Shown: positions 1 to 11,305 of the stretch, one piece after another
Position numbering within the stretch: position 1 is the first letter of the stretch
Layout of the letters: every line of letters begins with the position of its first letter
IMG/VR virus record: IMGVR_UViG_3300003323_001324
Location: 1-64,000 of that record
Direction: 5' to 3' (one strand)
Length of the DNA stretch: 64,000 nucleotides
Origin: a virus
Made by a program: the position numbers and the translations under genes
Notes under the pieces: generated by a model
Database searches by the model: none
Seen by the model: the letters and a program-made list of their open reading frames with translations, nothing else
What the model was told of the DNA's origin: nothing

Positions 1-1
1 C

Positions 2-469
2 TTCGACGCCGACACCGCCGAGGAGGACCTGACCAAGAAGTACGAGGTCGCCCTCCGCCCCTCGGACGTCCGCATGTTCAAGGCCCTGACGGGGGACCAC
101 TCCGACAAGATCCCGGGGGTCCCCCGCCTCCGCAAGAAGGTCGCCGCCCCCCTCTGCCGGCACCGGAGCGTCGACGACCTGATCGCGACCGGTCTGCCGG
201 GCTTCTCGAAGGTTGAGAAGCAGAAGACGGAGGACCTCAGGGACCGGATCGCCCTGAACCTACTTTTGATTACCCTCGACTCCACCGTAGACTACGGCGC
301 CTGCCGGATGCGCGCTCTTGCCGACTACGAGATGGCCGGAAGGGTCCTCCGGGAGGACCTCGGGATAGGCTACGTGTCTCCCCGCTCCTTTGCCTTCGCC
401 CCCTCCGGCAGGCGCGTCGGGGCCCCGGTCGAGTTCAACTCTCTGCCCGACTTTCTTCGCGACATCTGA
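2..469 (+). CDS. 5'-3' exonuclease (FEN/T4 RNase H-like), C-terminal part
   Basis: The open frame enters from the left edge, so the N-terminal catalytic half is outside the window. About 23 residues in, it shows LTGDHSDKIPGV, the helix-hairpin-helix (H3TH) DNA-binding signature of flap/5'-3' exonucleases (family form: LxGDxSDNIPGV). The following helical residues and the conserved NLLLI segment fit the same C-terminal domain. The family removes RNA primers and flaps during phage DNA replication. Only about 155 residues are visible. It is followed by 126 bases without a recognised gene before the sigma-like protein. The family call is fairly firm; the exact subtype cannot be decided from this fragment. 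Confidence 0.75.
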   Translation, partial: FDADTAEEDLTKKYEVALRPSDVRMFKALTGDHSDKIPGVPRLRKKVAAPLCRHRSVDDLIATGLPGFSKVEKQKTEDLRDRIALNLLLITLDSTVDYGACRMRALADYEMAGRVLREDLGIGYVSPRSFAFAPSGRRVGAPVEFNSLPDFLRDI

Positions 470-595
470 TCTCGGTAGTGTTTCAACGGGCCCTCCAGCC
501 CAGACGTATACCGATACTAAGACCGCCGGTCCTGCGATCTATACGAATACGCATATGGAAACTACCGCGGCGGGGCCGCGCTGGCTGGAGAGTGC
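470..595 (+). promoter_or_regulatory. intergenic leader before the sigma-like gene
   Basis: This 126-base gap is AT-richer than its surroundings and holds several TATA-like steps (tataccgatact near 508-519, atctatacg near 538-546 and catatgg near 552-558). It probably contains the promoter of the sigma-like gene. No single element can be chosen by eye. Confidence 0.3.
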
Positions 596-1372
596 TTGTC
601 CCACATAGTAATTTCCGATCCGCAGGATATCTCTTCTCGTTTTAGCAACAAGCAGCGCCTCGGGGGAGACGGCGAGTCCGCCTTCGAGATGGACGACCTC
701 GCCAACATCATCGAGAGGTCGCTCGCGCCCGCCCCGGAGGAGGAGCTCCTCACCGAGGGCGTCATCCTCGACTTCGGGTCCATCGAGCGCCACCTGGAGC
801 GGATCCCGCCCCGCGAGGCTGACCTGATCGAGATGTACTACCGGGACTCCCTGAAGCAGGAGCAGATCGCCCGGTACTTCAACATCACCCAGGCGGCCGT
901 CTCCTACCGCCTCCATCGCGGCATACGCCGTATCCAGTTCCTGCGCACCATCCCGGAGCTGGACCGCGACGAGTTCGAGGCAGAGCTCGGCTCGAAGTTC
1001 TCGGACCAGGACCGCGAGATCCTCTGGCTCATGTACGAGACGACCTGTCAGTCCGAGATCGCGAAGCGCCTCGGCCTCACCCAGGGCCGCGTCCGCCATC
1101 GCTTCTTCAGGGCCCTGACCAAGATCAAGGAGCTCATCGCCGACGAGGCGCGCCTGGTCGAGGAGGTCATCCGCCGGGAGCAGAAGCGCGGCACGCGCGA
1201 CGGCGGGGAGGAAGAGGTCCTCCGCGAGGTCGAGGAGGCGACCAGGACGTCCTGTTACGCCAAGTACTGGACCGTGTACTACGCCATCTCGGACAAGCAC
1301 TTCAACATCCTACACGAGGTCTCCCTCCCGCAATTCCGGGACCGCGGCGTCGCGCAGATACTCGCCGTCTGA
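596..1372 (+). CDS. protein with two sigma-70 region-4-like HTH domains
   Basis: A 258-residue protein on a TTG start (GGAG lies just upstream; a later ATG at about residue 31 is the alternative). Two helix-turn-helix units of the sigma-70 region 4 type lie in tandem. The first is around residues 80-120 (LIEMYYRD, EQIARYFNITQAAVSYRLHRG) and the second around residues 140-180 (EILWLMYETT, SEIAKRLGLTQGRVRHRFFRA). No region 2 (-10 binding, core-binding) sequence is apparent, so it is not a standard sigma factor. It may be a phage transcription regulator that binds promoters or RNA polymerase. The C-terminal 80 residues are unrecognised. It stands alone with its own leader. Confidence 0.7.
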   Translation: MSHIVISDPQDISSRFSNKQRLGGDGESAFEMDDLANIIERSLAPAPEEELLTEGVILDFGSIERHLERIPPREADLIEMYYRDSLKQEQIARYFNITQAAVSYRLHRGIRRIQFLRTIPELDRDEFEAELGSKFSDQDREILWLMYETTCQSEIAKRLGLTQGRVRHRFFRALTKIKELIADEARLVEEVIRREQKRGTRDGGEEEVLREVEEATRTSCYAKYWTVYYAISDKHFNILHEVSLPQFRDRGVAQILAV

Positions 1373-5505: not shown

Positions 5506-6664
5506 GGACGCCCTCACGAAGTCCGTGGACACCTTCGGACTCGGAACCTACGACGGGCTCTCCGACGGGTCCCTTCACGGCGAGGACGACGAGCAGCGCG
5601 AGCCCGTCGGCGACTCCCTGCCGACCGAGGTGACCGACGAGTTCGACGTCGAGTACTACCTGAGCTACCCTCAGGAGAAGGCCCTCGGCGGCCCGAAGCA
5701 CGCGTCCCTCGACTGGTTCTTGGCCTCCATCCTTCCCGGGGACGGGGACCGCCCCGCGCGCGCTCCGAAGCCGGCGGAGAAGGTCCTGGACGACCTGGCC
5801 GCCCCTCCCTCCGACGTCCGCACCTCCGAGTCGGAGCTCCCGAGCGACTCCGACAACCCCTCCGCCCGGTCCGACTACTACGACCGCATGACAATGGGGA
5901 AGGTCCTCCGGTCCCTGGACGAGGGACGGTTCTGGCCCTCCGAGGACTCTGGCTCCTACGTCACGCAGGAGCAGAAGGACGTCGAGCCCGCCCCATCCGA
6001 CGACGTGGCCCCCTGGAAGGACGGGGACGGCCACTACGTGGACGACGACGGGGCCATCGAGAGCACGCCTACCCCGGAGTTCAACGACAACGTCATGGAC
6101 AACTCGCTCGGCGCCCTCGGCAACTCCGACTCCGGGTACGTCGTCGAGGACCTGTCGAACCCGCGCGGCTTCCCGAACCAGGACTTCATGGAGGAGGCCG
6201 ACTTTCTCGACGAGAACCCCATCCTCCCCGAGCTCTGGCATCTTCAGCCTTTTGGGTACGCCGCAGAACAGAGGAAAACTATGTCAACCAGGGTGTCAAC
6301 CGACATCGACAAGGTTCGGGACCTGACGAAGGCCTTCCTGAAGGAGCACGGCCGCAAGAGCATTGTGCGCCGCAGCGTCCTGGCCTTCCTCCAGTCCAAG
6401 GGCCTTCCTCAGTACCTCGCGTCGGACGTCATCCGCTGCATGAAGCATGACCATGACATCCTCGTCCCGGACGTCATGGACGCCTTCCCCATCGCCCAGG
6501 ACGCGCCGGACGACCTGCGCCGCCTGGCCTCCATCCACGGCCGCCTTCTCGAGCTCAGCCTCACCGTCCCGGACCGGGAGACGGCCTCGAGGCTCAACCG
6601 CTGTGCCGCCAGCGTCGCCGGGGCCATCATGAAGCTCGAGCGCGCTGCCCTCGGTAACATTTGA
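5483..6664 (+). CDS. acidic hypothetical protein with helical C-terminal domain
   Basis: 393 residues if the TTG at 5483 is used; a GTG at 5524 is the main alternative, so the start is uncertain. Residues 1-260 are acidic and low-complexity, like the preceding gene. The last 130 residues are a compact helical domain beginning near MSTRVSTDIDKVRDLTKAF, with no acidic bias. The two-part layout matches the preceding protein, and the pair may have arisen by duplication. Unrecognised; a head-core or internal protein is a reasonable guess. Confidence 0.5.
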   Translation: MPSSLPTEDALTKSVDTFGLGTYDGLSDGSLHGEDDEQREPVGDSLPTEVTDEFDVEYYLSYPQEKALGGPKHASLDWFLASILPGDGDRPARAPKPAEKVLDDLAAPPSDVRTSESELPSDSDNPSARSDYYDRMTMGKVLRSLDEGRFWPSEDSGSYVTQEQKDVEPAPSDDVAPWKDGDGHYVDDDGAIESTPTPEFNDNVMDNSLGALGNSDSGYVVEDLSNPRGFPNQDFMEEADFLDENPILPELWHLQPFGYAAEQRKTMSTRVSTDIDKVRDLTKAFLKEHGRKSIVRRSVLAFLQSKGLPQYLASDVIRCMKHDHDILVPDVMDAFPIAQDAPDDLRRLASIHGRLLELSLTVPDRETASRLNRCAASVAGAIMKLERAALGNI

Positions 6665-6686
6665 TCTTTCATCGCGTGTGAGGACG

Positions 6687-8663
6687 ATGTCCAGCAGGAT
6701 ACCTGACAACTTCGAGTCCGGAATCGGAGACATCACCGAGGTGATGAGCAGCCAGGGCGTGTCCGACCTGTCGTGGCTCAACGTGGACGAGGAGATGTAC
6801 AGGGAGGCCGAGGCTCTTCCGAAGCAGAACCTCGACATCATCCCCGAGCTCCAGTCTGCCCTCTCCTGGGACGGCAAGGACGACCGCGTGCCTGTCGTCA
6901 CCCCGCTGCGCCCGCACGCGGTCGTGAACCGCAACCCGCTGGACAACCCCGAGGCGACCCTCCGCTCGAACTCCTCGGTCCCGAACCGCCTCGCCGCCTA
7001 TGTCATCGCGGGCCTCCCCGACGCGACGATCGCGAGCCGCCTTTCGCTCGAGTTCAGCCCCGCCCAGCTCTCCGCCTCTCACGCCGAGGCCTCCAAGGTC
7101 CTGGACGAGAAGGGGCTGCTCGGGAACGTCTACGTCGACGCCTCCCACTTCCCGCGTTGCGCCCAGGAGGGCCCGCACCGGGAGTTCGTCGCCAAGAGCG
7201 CGAAGCGCGCCCTGTACGTCCTCGCCAAGACCGCCTGCGGCGGGTGCGTCTGCAACAAGTCCGGTACCTGCTCCTCCTTCAAGAAGAGGCTGGTCACCGA
7301 GGTCCCGTACGACCACAAGACCGCCGCGCACTACGTCCCGCAGCTGACCTCGGAGAACCGCATCGCCCCCGGCGAGCTCAAGGCGGCCCTCGCCTCCGGC
7401 CCGTCCGGCGTCAAGGCCCTCCTCCGACAGTCCTTCCTGCGGCCCGTCGCCACCCGCTTCGAGTCCCCGCAGACCATCCAGCAGCGCGCGATCCCGAAGC
7501 CCGCGGAGTTCACCGAGGCCGACGTCCGCTCCTTCTGGGAGCGCCGCATGGCGTCCTCCGACGCCGAGGCGATGCCGGGGACGATGCACCTCCTGGCCGC
7601 CCGCCGCATCATGCAGGGCCGCGCCGACGCCCGCTCCCTCGTGGCGTCCTCCGACGCCGGCCTCCGCGCCCTGGCCCGGGAGAACGGCCTCCTCGGCCAC
7701 ACGTACGTCGACGCCGACGCTCTCGGCGGCGTCCACGAGGCCCTCAAGCACGTGCAGGCCGGGATCAAGTCCGGACGCGGCGCCCCAGACTTCGTCCTCC
7801 TCCGTAACCCGACCCAGGCCGACGCCACCTCCCCGGACATGGCCCAGCTCGTGCAGCTGTCCTCCGTCGTCCGCAAGCGCCCGGAGCTCGGGATCTCGCA
7901 CTTCGCGTCCGCCCTCGAGCGCGCCGTCGCCTCCGGGCGCATCACGCCCGAGATGGCCGCCGCGGCCTCCTCCAAGGTCGCCGCCGCGCCCTTCGCCCCC
8001 GCCGACTGGCCTTCGGCCATCGCCCACGTGAACCTCGCCTCCGCCCCGGCCCCCGAGGCCCGCCAGGTGGACGTCCAGACCACCATCGGGACGACGGTCC
8101 ACCACGGGACCGCGCCGACGGAGACTCCGGTCGCCGTCATGGACCCCGAGGAGGTCCGCCGGACCATCTCGCACCTGATGAACACCGGCTTCTCCGGCCG
8201 GAAGCTCCAGGCCGTCATCCTCCAGAGGTACTCCAGGTCGGACCTCGCCCAGGTCCCGGAGGTCGGCGCCGCCCTGTCCCGGGATGACGGCGTCCAGGGC
8301 CATTACTTCATCGATCCGACCGCCTACAAGGACTACGGGCGCGGCTGCCAGACCGGCGGCGACAAGTTCCGCAAGCTCAACCCCGTCCCGAACGTCCTCG
8401 CGGCCTCCGGGTGCACCGGCTGCCGGAGCCAGACCCGCCCCGGATGGTGCTCGCGCTACGCCAAGACCCTCATCCGCCAGGTTCCCGAGGCTGTCCGGAC
8501 CGAGGCTGCCGAGCGTCGCCGCCTCCCCGTCGTCCGCGAGACCGCCCCGATGACGAACCCCGTCACGGAGTTCGGCCTCACCGCCTCCCTGGAGGTGGAG
8601 ATCGCCGCTCCCCCGAAGGCGAGGCCCGACGTGGTGGTCTCCTCCCAGTCAATCCCGGACTGA
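6687..8663 (+). CDS. large repeat protein with two cysteine clusters
   Basis: About 658 residues. The ATG at 6687 is preferred because GTGAGGA lies just upstream; an in-frame GTG at 6678 would add three residues. A degenerate unit occurs three times, each with a helical part followed by a GxxYhDxxxh signature: LLGNVYVDASHF, LLGHTYVDADAL and VQGHYFIDPTAY. The first and third are followed by cysteine clusters (CGGCVCNKSGTC and CTGCRSQTRPGWC) that could bind metal. It ends 18 bases before the candidate small terminase gene. Not recognised; structural or DNA-binding roles are both possible. Confidence 0.6.
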   Translation: MSSRIPDNFESGIGDITEVMSSQGVSDLSWLNVDEEMYREAEALPKQNLDIIPELQSALSWDGKDDRVPVVTPLRPHAVVNRNPLDNPEATLRSNSSVPNRLAAYVIAGLPDATIASRLSLEFSPAQLSASHAEASKVLDEKGLLGNVYVDASHFPRCAQEGPHREFVAKSAKRALYVLAKTACGGCVCNKSGTCSSFKKRLVTEVPYDHKTAAHYVPQLTSENRIAPGELKAALASGPSGVKALLRQSFLRPVATRFESPQTIQQRAIPKPAEFTEADVRSFWERRMASSDAEAMPGTMHLLAARRIMQGRADARSLVASSDAGLRALARENGLLGHTYVDADALGGVHEALKHVQAGIKSGRGAPDFVLLRNPTQADATSPDMAQLVQLSSVVRKRPELGISHFASALERAVASGRITPEMAAAASSKVAAAPFAPADWPSAIAHVNLASAPAPEARQVDVQTTIGTTVHHGTAPTETPVAVMDPEEVRRTISHLMNTGFSGRKLQAVILQRYSRSDLAQVPEVGAALSRDDGVQGHYFIDPTAYKDYGRGCQTGGDKFRKLNPVPNVLAASGCTGCRSQTRPGWCSRYAKTLIRQVPEAVRTEAAERRRLPVVRETAPMTNPVTEFGLTASLEVEIAAPPKARPDVVVSSQSIPD

Positions 8664-8670
8664 ACGCCGG

Positions 8671-8681: not shown

Positions 8682-9326
8682 ATGGATGATGACGGCCCCA
8701 TCGACGGGGACGACGACGATCTCGGCGACGACAGGCCGCCGAAGCCGTCCCGCGGCACCCTGGTGGTCCTGCCCGGCGGGAAGGTCCACGACCCGCGGCC
8801 CGACGTCGGCGCCGACTACGTCGTCGGGCAGTCCAAGGCCAACAATGCCGTGACTCCCGAGGTCCTGGACCCGATGGTCATCGACCGGGCCCTCAAGGAG
8901 CGGGAGGACTTCGTCGAGAAGTCGCGCCTCGTGGAGGCCGTCAAGGACACGAAGAAGGGCGGGAACTTCTCCGTCGTCGAGGACGCCGCCCTCCTGGAGA
9001 TAGCCGAGGAGCTCGCCCACATAAAGTACGAGCGCCGCCGCGCCGCCAAGGACGGGAAGAACACGTCCCCGTTCAGCCTCGGGAGGATAGCGGGGCTGAA
9101 GACCCTCGCCGACCTTCTCCTGAAGCGCCGCGAGGCCGCCCGCGGCGAGCGCATGGACCTGAAGTCCCCGCGCTTCCAGGCCGTCTTCAAGATCTGGATG
9201 GAGTTCTTCTACGAGGCGATGGAGAAGTCCGGGGTTGAGTCCCACATCATCGACCTCGTCTTTCAGCAGATGAAGGCCGACATGGTCAACTGGGAGAGGC
9301 GCATGGACGGCCTCGAGGACACCTGA
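8682..9326 (+). CDS. candidate terminase small subunit
   Basis: 214 residues directly upstream of the large terminase, with stop and start fused as TGATG. The N-terminus is acidic and disordered (MDDDGPIDGDDDD). The remainder is all-helical with basic patches (ELAHIKYERRRAAKDG, LLLKRREAARGER), consistent with a DNA-recognition helper. No HTH motif can be named with confidence, so the call rests on position, size and composition. It could also be an unrelated packaging accessory. Confidence 0.45.
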   Translation: MDDDGPIDGDDDDLGDDRPPKPSRGTLVVLPGGKVHDPRPDVGADYVVGQSKANNAVTPEVLDPMVIDRALKEREDFVEKSRLVEAVKDTKKGGNFSVVEDAALLEIAEELAHIKYERRRAAKDGKNTSPFSLGRIAGLKTLADLLLKRREAARGERMDLKSPRFQAVFKIWMEFFYEAMEKSGVESHIIDLVFQQMKADMVNWERRMDGLEDT

Positions 9327-11305
9327 TGCCCAGCATTGAGAAGGCGGACAAGAGCCACCTGACCGGGGCGGTCGAGGAGATCATCGCCAAGAAGCGGCGC
9401 CAAAAGCACATAGACTCCGGCTCCTCCGACATATACGACCCCGGGTTCCTGAACATCCTGGAGTTCATCGACAGGTACAAGCTGCTCCCGAACGGGCTCT
9501 TCCCCGTCCAGCGCTTCATCCTCAAGATGTACTACAACATCCCCCTGGACTCGGTTCTCCCGCCGAACCCCCAGGACCGGATCGTCATAAGCAAGACTTT
9601 CCGGAAGGCCAAGAGCGTCGAGCTGACCGAGGTCGAGTACCTCAAGTACCTCTACGACAACGGTCGCTGCAACATCGCGGTCCAGGACTTCAAGCCGCGC
9701 CGGGAGCTCATCCTCGTCCTCGGCCGCCGCTCCGGCAAGAGCATGATGTCCTCCATCATCTCGGCCTACGAGCTCTACAAGCTCATCGCCCGCGGACATC
9801 CTCAGGCCTACTACGGGATGCTCCCGACCTCGAAGATCCAGATCATCTGCATCGCGAACGACAAGTCGCAGGCCGAGATCGTCTACGGCGAGATCTCGAA
9901 CCACGTCCAGCAGGTCGACTACTTCCAGAGCGCCCTGAAGCGCGCGACCTCGACCTTCATGCACTTCCGGACCGAGAGCGACAACCAGCGCTTCAAGTCG
10001 GATCCGAAGAAGTCGTCCATCGTCGCCACCTTCAAGAGCTCGAACGCCGGCTCCATCCGCGGCCGCGCCTGCATCGCCTGCATCCTGGACGAGCTCGCGT
10101 TCTTCATCCACGAGGGGAAGGGCTCCGACGGGGAGGTCTACAGGGCCGTCAACCCCGCCCTCAAGCAGTTCTCCCCCAAGGACCCGAAGAACCGCCGCAG
10201 GTCGCTCGGCCCCTCTGAGGGCCGCATGATATCCATCTCCTCGCCGAACGCGAAGGAGGGCCTCTTCTACAAGCTCTACGAGCTCTCGAAGTCCGGCGGC
10301 ATCGCCTCCTCCCAGATGCTGATGATCCAGGCCCCGACCTGGGAGGTCAACCCGACCATGGACGAGGCGGAGTACGAGGTCGAGCGCGCCAAGGACCCGC
10401 GCGCCTTCGAGACCGAGTTCGGGGCCCAGTTCTCGGACCGCGTCCGCGGCTGGATCGAGAACGCCCAGGACCTCCTCGACTGCTGTATCAAGGACCTGAG
10501 GCCCCTCGTGCGCGGCGCTCCCCGGGAGCCTTTCTTCGCCGGGGCGGACCTCGCCATCTCGGGAGACGGGACCTGCATATCCCTCTCCCACATCGTGGAC
10601 GGCCGCATTCAGCTCGGCTATCATGAGACCTGGTGCGCCGGCGTCCCCTGGGAGGAGTCGAACCCCCATCTCTCGAGCCCGCCCGTCCCCTATGCCACGA
10701 CCCTCGCTAGTCAGAAGAGGCTGGACGTCGACGAGATCGTCGACTGGTTCTACGCCCTGACGAGGCGCTTCTACATAGTCGGGGGTCTCCTCGACCAGGC
10801 CTTCGGCGTCATCTTCGAGCAGAAGCTGCACAAGAAGGGCCTTACGCAGTTCGAGTGCCGGCGCTTCAGCACCTCCGACAGCTCGGACACCTACCAGAAC
10901 GCCAAGATGCTCATGTTCATGGGGCAGCTCGGCATCTACGACTACCCCGTTCCGGCGGCCGACGAGGAGTCCCTCCTCACGACCGCCCGTCACTCGCCCC
11001 ACATCGAGGAGCTCCTCGAGCTCCAGGCCACCTCGGGCGGCAAGAACATCGTCATCGTCACGAAGCCGAACATCATCGGCAAGAAGGACGACTTTTCCGA
11101 CAGCCTGGTCCGGAGCCTCTCTCTGGCGGCGGACTACGTGAAGGCGAACCCGGCCGTCCTGGAGCTCTCCAAGGTGTCGGCCGGCCTCGCCCCTCCTCGC
11201 CGTCCGGTCGCCCCGAGCCCCTACACGCAGCGCCTCCAGAAGATCCGGATGCACGGCCCTCCCCCGAAGGAGAGGCGGATCCCCGCCTCCATGCGCCGTA
11301 GGTAG
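9326..11305 (+). CDS. terL: terminase large subunit (packaging ATPase and nuclease)
   Basis: 659 residues. The N-terminal ATPase has the P-loop GRRSGKS at residues 133-139 and the Walker B motif ACILDELAFF with Asp255-Glu256. A coupling-type segment (MISISSPNAKEG) lies near residue 305. The C-terminal RNase H-fold nuclease shows the first catalytic Asp in FFAGADLAISGDG and a later acidic position in GGLLDQAFG. It translocates and cuts concatemeric DNA at the portal. The ATG overlaps the upstream stop (TGATG), so the two are translationally coupled. Confidence 0.93.
   Translation: MPSIEKADKSHLTGAVEEIIAKKRRQKHIDSGSSDIYDPGFLNILEFIDRYKLLPNGLFPVQRFILKMYYNIPLDSVLPPNPQDRIVISKTFRKAKSVELTEVEYLKYLYDNGRCNIAVQDFKPRRELILVLGRRSGKSMMSSIISAYELYKLIARGHPQAYYGMLPTSKIQIICIANDKSQAEIVYGEISNHVQQVDYFQSALKRATSTFMHFRTESDNQRFKSDPKKSSIVATFKSSNAGSIRGRACIACILDELAFFIHEGKGSDGEVYRAVNPALKQFSPKDPKNRRRSLGPSEGRMISISSPNAKEGLFYKLYELSKSGGIASSQMLMIQAPTWEVNPTMDEAEYEVERAKDPRAFETEFGAQFSDRVRGWIENAQDLLDCCIKDLRPLVRGAPREPFFAGADLAISGDGTCISLSHIVDGRIQLGYHETWCAGVPWEESNPHLSSPPVPYATTLASQKRLDVDEIVDWFYALTRRFYIVGGLLDQAFGVIFEQKLHKKGLTQFECRRFSTSDSSDTYQNAKMLMFMGQLGIYDYPVPAADEESLLTTARHSPHIEELLELQATSGGKNIVIVTKPNIIGKKDDFSDSLVRSLSLAADYVKANPAVLELSKVSAGLAPPRRPVAPSPYTQRLQKIRMHGPPPKERRIPASMRRR

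Follow-up and report, generated by a model that had tools for sequence, protein, structure and literature searches.

The window analysed here, a 64,000-nt stretch of a 157,577-bp viral record, opens with the 3' part of an exonuclease gene, a promoter-like motif, a structured leader, and a gene whose product carries two sigma-region-4 domains in tandem. The features considered below are as follows (positions are those of the window).

1-469, plus strand: 3' part of a 5'-3' exonuclease gene, the upstream neighbour (Pfam 5_3_exonuc, E 1.4e-7, under the curated cut-off; gene order kept in relatives)
474-482, plus strand: promoter-like GGTAGTGTT, with a GTANNNT core at 475-481 (by eye, most of 29 homologs have a similar motif upstream)
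489-595, plus strand: structured 5' leader of the tandem sigma-4 gene, about 107 nt (R1 model, RNAalifold)
493-500, plus strand: 5' arm of helix P1, CTCCAGCC, the anti-Shine-Dalgarno arm (covariation in 24 leaders)
502-523, plus strand: repeat cluster 1, AGAC NN ATAC NN ATAC NN AGAC, at a 6-nt period (pattern scan, period-6 count)
521-531, plus strand: small hairpin GACC/GGTC between the repeat clusters (by eye; similar in some relatives, none in, for example, L018 and L025)
541-562, plus strand: repeat cluster 2, ATAC NN ATAC NN ATAT NN AAAC (pattern scan, period-6 count)
567-579, plus strand: hairpin GCGGC/GCCGC before the Shine-Dalgarno arm (by eye; its counterparts in relatives vary)
583-590, plus strand: 3' arm of helix P1, GGCTGGAG, which contains the Shine-Dalgarno GGAG and pairs with 493-500
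596-1372, plus strand: open reading frame of the tandem sigma-region-4 protein, 258 aa, TTG start
773-943, plus strand: sigma-4 unit 1, residues 60-116, recognition helix in ITQAAVSYRL (Pfam match at residues 67-113, model, VIA-align Z up to 10.2)
965-1150, plus strand: sigma-4 unit 2, residues 124-185, recognition helix in LTQGRVRHRF (PF04545 at 1001-1132, model)
1286-1360, plus strand: conserved C-terminal motif ISDKHFNILHEVSLPQFRDRG.AQI, residues 231-255, without a known domain (homolog alignment; low model confidence here)
9326-11305: terminase-like ATPase, downstream in the window (below the Pfam cut-off)

The initial annotation described the 258-aa product as two helix-turn-helix (HTH) domains of the sigma-4 type without region 2, and Pfam, NCBIfam and the predicted fold bear this description out. 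Sigma70_r4 (PF04545) matched two stretches of the protein (E 1.5e-18, 66.5 bits against a cut-off of 24.1), as did Sigma70_r4_2 (PF08281; 62.9 bits against a cut-off of 25.7) and the NCBIfam model sigma70-ECF. Across the 157,577-bp parent record, PF04545 matched only at 794-934 and 1001-1132, both within this gene. The absence of region 2 was likewise confirmed, with no match to Sigma70_r2 (PF04542) in the protein or over the entire parent record. A sigma-70 factor is characterized by a region 2 that binds the core enzyme and the -10 element, and the tandem protein has none. The TTG start at position 596 is supported by homology that spans residue 1-2 to residue 258 in three relatives (L001, L002 and L003).

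In the AlphaFold2 model (pLDDT 77.9, pTM 0.70), a short linker connects two four-helix units (about residues 60-116 and 124-185), and there are a long helix at 163-198 and a poorly predicted C-terminus. The VIA-align fold neighbours of unit 1 were sigma region 4 (Z 7.5-10) and YlxM-type chains (Z up to 10.2), with KorA and ArdK chains also among them; unit 2 was hardly covered by this search, and its fold rests on the model and the profile. YlxM/UPF0122, a bacterial SRP-linked protein that was among the best unit 1 matches (1xsv and 1s7o, Z 10.2 and 9.7), carries one such unit, whereas the tandem protein carries two. For the full-length protein, Foldseek returned no match at E <=0.001 in the PDB or BFVD. 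We aligned 30 homologs (alignment A4: 29 of the 36 loci described below plus the window, leaving out the duplicated or truncated L009, L013, L014, L020, L022, L034 and L037). The recognition-helix residues of both units proved largely invariant, and the C-terminal region held 15 invariant positions between 224 and 251.

These observations must be weighed against a simpler account, in which the protein is a plain DNA-binding late-gene regulator, similar to T5 D5, KorA/ArdK or RinA/ArpU, whose HTHs act on promoters without polymerase contact. Largely invariant recognition helices and the KorA and ArdK neighbours of unit 1 would suit such a regulator, as would two PHROG matches: phrog_323, 'transcriptional regulator, D5-like', across both units (residues 70-229, E 1.2e-6), and phrog_36, 'transcriptional regulator' (E 7.1e-9). 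T5 D5 binds DNA, is 255 aa long and, according to its annotation, is required for late transcription. It has several HTH matches, including Sigma70_r4_2 at 204-230, and none to region 2. Unlike the tandem protein, D5 lacks a pair of above-cut-off sigma-4 domains. A profile comparison of the two proteins with hhalign gave no relation (probability 0.1, E 0.4), and the phrog_323 match may reflect shared HTHs only. Since the best matches of the tandem protein, in both sequence and fold, are to region 4 of true sigma factors, we regard a regulator without polymerase contact as unlikely and favour a sigma-4-based transcription cofactor.

Scans of IMG/VR for relatives of the tandem protein recovered three loci at first and then 36 viral loci, 13 of which lie on contigs of 182-436 kb; the carriers form a lineage of very large phages. 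Among 50,697 phage records, the single match was LR745208.1 (L005), an unannotated record of 485 kb with 48.7% identity over 43% of the query. This version is 197 aa long and has, by eye, a counterpart of the C-terminal motif. A pattern-seeded scan of one genome per species, covering 84,980 bacterial and archaeal species, yielded no relative among 95 candidate stretches.

The gene neighbourhood is well kept. The tandem sigma-4 gene comes after clamp-loader-like, NusG/Spt5-like and exonuclease genes, and we searched for each of these by tblastn in 37 loci (L005-L041, which include near-duplicates as well as L006, the query contig). The exonuclease neighbour was found in 36 of the 37 (absent from L005) and the clamp-loader-like neighbour in 34 (absent from L013, L016 and L022, all short contigs). 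The L001 query detected the NusG-like neighbour in 35 (absent from L005 and L013), and the NusG-like gene of L005 was detected with that locus's own query. The clamp-loader (DnaX-like) name comes from reading the sequence by eye. The NusG/Spt5-like identity is modest (KOW and NusG Pfam matches below cut-offs, SPT5 chains at E 5.4e-7, an antiterminator PHROG at E 0.002), and these modest matches lend support to a transcription-related setting of the gene.

Two further features of the loci were noticed by eye. In L001, the closest relative, the gene directly downstream of the tandem sigma-4 gene (5840-7342) contains repeated Cys-rich and AP2/HNH-like segments and is possibly a homing endonuclease. 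The DnaX-like gene of LR745208.1 (L005 2451-4337) has a seeming intein-like insert between CFTEDAQL and VSNCH.

The leader RNA, about which the initial annotation said nothing, is the most unusual feature of the locus and more novel than the tandem protein. No Rfam family matched positions 400-700 of the window at E up to 1. The gene's own promoter, GGTAGTGT (474-481), carries the GTANNNT core, placing the probable transcription start near 488-490. A model of the leader (R1) matched the window leader, a member of its training set, in its own record at E 3.5e-17, and failed to detect the sigma-4 leaders in G009 and G011, both outside the training set. The L005 locus is without such a leader, and there the NusG-like gene overlaps the start of the tandem-family gene.

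We assembled 30 leaders (29 of the 36 loci plus the window), of which 24 entered alignment A3, leaving out L026, L028, L031, L035, L036 and L038. A scan for the best complementary pair in the 30 leaders chose the P1 arms used in 23, with a 3' arm that spans the Shine-Dalgarno site; in seven leaders (L008, L018, L021, L026, L031, L036 and L038) the arms were set by eye, and three of these were retained in A3. Because the arms were chosen by complementarity, P1 was favoured in advance. Moreover, considering single leaders, only 12 of the 30 had pairing that was equalled or exceeded in no more than 0-1 of 60 shuffles, and for the window leader alone 6 of 60 shuffles were as good as P1. The evidence for the helix therefore has to come from comparing leaders with one another.

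This comparison was clear. Across the 24 leaders of A3, 89.9% of the cells of a 9-bp helix were paired, versus 75.7% in shuffled sets and 30-48% in slid controls. The covariation score was 0.514 versus 0.280 in shuffles (0/500), and double-change cells numbered 38 versus 14.3. Eight pairs had double changes, versus 5.5 in shuffles (4/500), and further pair types numbered 20 versus 16.6 (11/500). Run unaided on A3, RNAalifold recovered P1 as the closing helix, with double changes at seven of its eight pairs. Similarly, when arms were swapped between the sigma-4 leaders, own arms paired at 21.9 versus 15.3 for swapped arms, and in 17 of the 30 leaders the own arm ranked within the best tenth. 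The covariation suggests that P1 masks the Shine-Dalgarno site of the tandem sigma-4 gene, with a predicted effect on translation.

Between the arms of P1 lie the two clusters of repeats, with units of the form A(U/G)A(C/U). In the 64-kb window, three A(T/G/A)A(C/T) units at a 6-nt period occur in this leader only (four overlapping placements, with 0.0 expected per strand), and just one of 75 other window genes has a period-6 pair. The 30 sigma-4 leaders averaged 3.10 period-6 pairs, versus 0.05 in shuffles that preserve base composition only (58-fold), and 28 of them had at least one. Enrichment over shuffles was 34-fold at period 12 and 2- to 10-fold at other periods. The letters of the two-base spacers between units are near random.

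The long covarying helix over the Shine-Dalgarno site would also be expected of an RNA-only device, namely a thermometer, a riboswitch or an sRNA target, operating without a protein partner. Short repeats with near-random two-base spacers, however, are not typical of aptamers or thermometers, and the number and spacing of hairpins vary among the leaders, which makes such a device improbable. Our preferred reading of the leader is a translational switch, with repeats recognized by a factor that could come from the phage or the host or could be the tandem protein. The nearest counterpart of the leader in logic would seem to be the (NAG)9-11 leaders bound by TRAP, which, in the sections of PMC4347634 devoted to them, share short repeats, non-conserved spacers and a location in an mRNA leader, and control access to the Shine-Dalgarno site, as P1 is predicted to do here. 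Unlike the TRAP leaders, those described here are built from an A(U/G)AC unit at period 6, in two clusters and before phage genes, and they do not carry the 9-11 NAG repeats.

We then considered how the promoters of this phage might be read. GTANNNT stands 11-16 nt before the start in 23 of the 78 called genes of the window, versus 0-8 for ten control patterns, counts that are approximate since gene calling was a simple codon-position scan that tried as many as six starts for each gene. When the 23 sites were aligned, no column of the preceding 40 nt exceeded 60%, and no conserved -35 was found. The class of -10-only promoters reported in the initial annotation accordingly exists. Since the usual distance from a -10 element to the transcription start is 6-7 nt, many GTANNNT mRNAs would be leaderless. 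Example sites of this near-leaderless class, GTANNNT(C), are at 8670, 17804, 32673, 34157 and 51341.

The tandem protein had been put forward as a candidate for the factor that recognizes or excludes these promoters, a proposal that our results do not support. In known sigma factors region 4 normally reads -35 DNA, an element absent from these promoters, and a partner bearing region 2 is a more natural reader of -10-only sites, with the tandem protein as a cofactor that binds the flap or upstream DNA. Region-2 matches (PF04542) were found in seven of 13 phage records, each with a region-2+4 frame plus a second frame, about 220-250 aa long, that has region 2 and no detected region-4 match. One region-2+4 protein (L042) is RpoD-like, its matches to regions 2 and 4 exceeding the cut-offs and those to regions 1.2 and 3 being weak, and two of the second region-2 proteins (P0002 and P0003) match region 2 alone in Pfam, with no Sigma70_r4. 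The second region-2 protein occurs at 14 viral loci, six of which share a contig with the tandem protein, and has a relative in LR745208.1 (E 4e-5). In its model (pTM 0.47), region 2 aligns with sigmaE region 2 (Z 7.6), and the alignment with T4 gp55 reached Z 5.5 at 6.1 A. Its C-terminal four-helix part aligns with a sigma-H chain (3mzy, residues 148-221; Z 6.6, 3.4 A over 65 residues) and with small-terminase HTHs. Given these alignments, this protein may be a complete sigma with a divergent region 4. No region-2 protein was found in the window's own record or in five others of the 13, perhaps because these records are fragments. The co-occurrence of tandem and region-2 proteins falls within one lineage and their genes lie far apart, so that it is compatible with a partnership without showing one.

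The 13 records also gave no match to the RNA polymerase beta' domain PF04998, the one domain model searched, which was detected in 14 of 14 controls. With no phage polymerase domain found by that model, the host polymerase is probably redirected. This, together with GTANNNT promoters that have no conserved -35, would fit an appropriator or anti-sigma that ousts host sigma region 4 from the beta flap, silencing -35 promoters while -10-only promoters stay active. Both units of the tandem protein retain a DNA-reading helix, which a pure flap blocker would not need, and we therefore consider that role distinctly improbable. A cofactor that combines flap binding with DNA contacts remains our preferred reading of the protein.

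Several known systems resemble such a cofactor in part. T4 late promoters lack a -35. In the portion of PMC7892883 concerned with T4 gp33 and gp55, flap binding and -10 reading are split between polypeptides on the host polymerase, as we suggest here. That portion describes gp33 as structurally unrelated to sigma region 4 and as not binding DNA by itself, whereas the phage protein at our locus has two true sigma-4 domains. T4 further uses the clamp gp45, while the bacterial-type sliding clamp PF02767, the one clamp family searched, was found in none of the 13 records, which are possibly fragments (controls 10 of 14). The C-terminal EVSLPQF of the tandem protein was considered as a clamp-binding motif and dropped, as a clamp was not found and EVSLPQF is not kept in the L005 relative.

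In a two-subunit sigma of the SigO-RsoA type, region 4 and region 2 sit on different proteins that function jointly. SigO of Bacillus subtilis has one region-4 domain. Together with RsoA it forms a two-subunit sigma that, as characterized in the pertinent part of PMC8103513, is a precedent in logic. Unlike SigO and RsoA, the tandem and region-2 proteins are encoded far apart and are putative partners. The minimal sigma of group 2 jumbo phages, in the passages of PMC7824862 that cover it, is a stand-alone, phage-encoded, region-4-like protein in phages without a phage polymerase, likewise resembling our case. It consists of one HTH, whereas here there are two in tandem and a conserved C-terminal motif. 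Our search of the open-access literature turned up no paper about tandem region-4 domains; this speaks only weakly for novelty, and the leader or the protein may still have been published.

The leader is not confined to the tandem sigma-4 gene. Searching the 13 records at E up to 1, the R1 model, trained on sigma-4 leaders alone, gave 23 hits: 11 training-set sigma-4 leaders, eight hits directly before a sheath-like gene, and four elsewhere. It is striking that eight of the 12 non-training hits fall on one gene family. These sheath-leader hits come from eight of the 13 records, two of them at E <0.001 (2.3e-8 and 4.8e-5). The encoded protein starts MGIGPFTTYAPPGVYTQT or nearly so. The name 'tail sheath' is a guess that rests on an N-terminal PPGVY motif and on length, which we take to indicate a tail sheath; the first 501 residues matched no family in Pfam, PHROGs or PDB sequences (best DUF2460, E 0.0013, below cut-off).

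A scan for the sheath-like gene recovered 40 loci. Removal of L142 and of identical leaders left 28 for the repeat count, the further exclusion of L123, L130 and L146 left 26 for arm swaps, and alignment A8 contains 23. The repeats were again enriched, with 2.39 period-6 pairs per leader versus 0.06 in shuffles (41-fold) and at least one pair in 24 of the 28. As for the helix, RNAalifold found no consensus in the 23 aligned sheath leaders, and own arms paired only weakly better than swapped ones (18.9 versus 16.6; own arm in the best tenth in 10 of 26). A GGCTCYYTATG motif before the sheath gene, considered as a late promoter, was dropped because it was not found in the window; it may be an anti-Shine-Dalgarno arm, in leaders for which RNAalifold gave no consensus helix.

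Within the 157-kb record, all four matches to AKAYNNAKAYNNAKAC lie in the tandem sigma-4 leader and the sheath leader, against one match for the reversed control. The bare repeat pattern is not specific in several records, where the reversed control equals or exceeds it (G004, G005, G009 and G010 among others; G004, G005 and G010 for the AKAYNNAKAYNNAKAC-type scan). That the three-unit pattern occurs in its own record only before these two genes, and that two tandem HTH units could read repeated sites, might suggest DNA operators for autoregulation and sheath control by the tandem protein, but the repeats keep one orientation, lie downstream of the -10 and between the arms of a covarying RNA helix, and at a 6-bp period, a spacing that alternates DNA faces, would put successive sites on opposite faces, making operators highly improbable.

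We consider the best explanation of the locus to be a two-unit sigma-4 phage transcription cofactor whose synthesis is set by a repeat-bearing, masking leader, and give it a probability of roughly 0.47. In the mechanism that we envisage, one unit would bind the beta flap of host RNA polymerase and the other upstream DNA or a second site. The tandem protein would probably act with a separate region-2 protein, or with the phage region-2+4 sigma, to steer host polymerase to phage genes; the time at which it would act is likewise our inference. Its synthesis would probably be set by its own mRNA leader, through the helix over the Shine-Dalgarno site. A factor that reads the A(U/G)AC repeats, and that may be multimeric, probably binds them and either opens P1 or locks it.

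As the same repeats stand before both genes, one factor may set the output of the tandem and sheath-like genes. We tentatively propose an RNA regulon in which a repeat-reading factor couples translation of the tandem-sigma-4 factor to that of the tail-sheath-like protein through a Shine-Dalgarno-masking helix, in genomes where many promoters look leaderless. If this is true, it becomes testable how phages seemingly without their own polymerase read -10-only promoters, and a repeat leader that couples a transcription factor to a virion protein would be a new form of timing of late phage genes. The repeat register should, in that case, permit affinity capture of the binder.

Outside both leaders, AKACNNAKACNNAKAC matches (L062, L063, L065, L066, L067, L068 and L071) were judged by eye to be coding or isolated and were set aside, although L062 and L068 could be further leaders. 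In L068 (G007:132000-132800, minus strand), AGAC NN ATAC NN AGAC is flanked by CATTTGGG and CCCAAATG, arms that would hide a start codon, and this is a possible third leader of the set. In L062 (G001:247600-248400, minus strand), a GGAGG is preceded by four A(U/G)AC units spaced 6-7 nt apart. In L065 (G003:376400-377200, minus strand), ATACGGAGACCAATACGGAGAC immediately precedes an ATG, and the repeat units double as a Shine-Dalgarno-like GGAGA.
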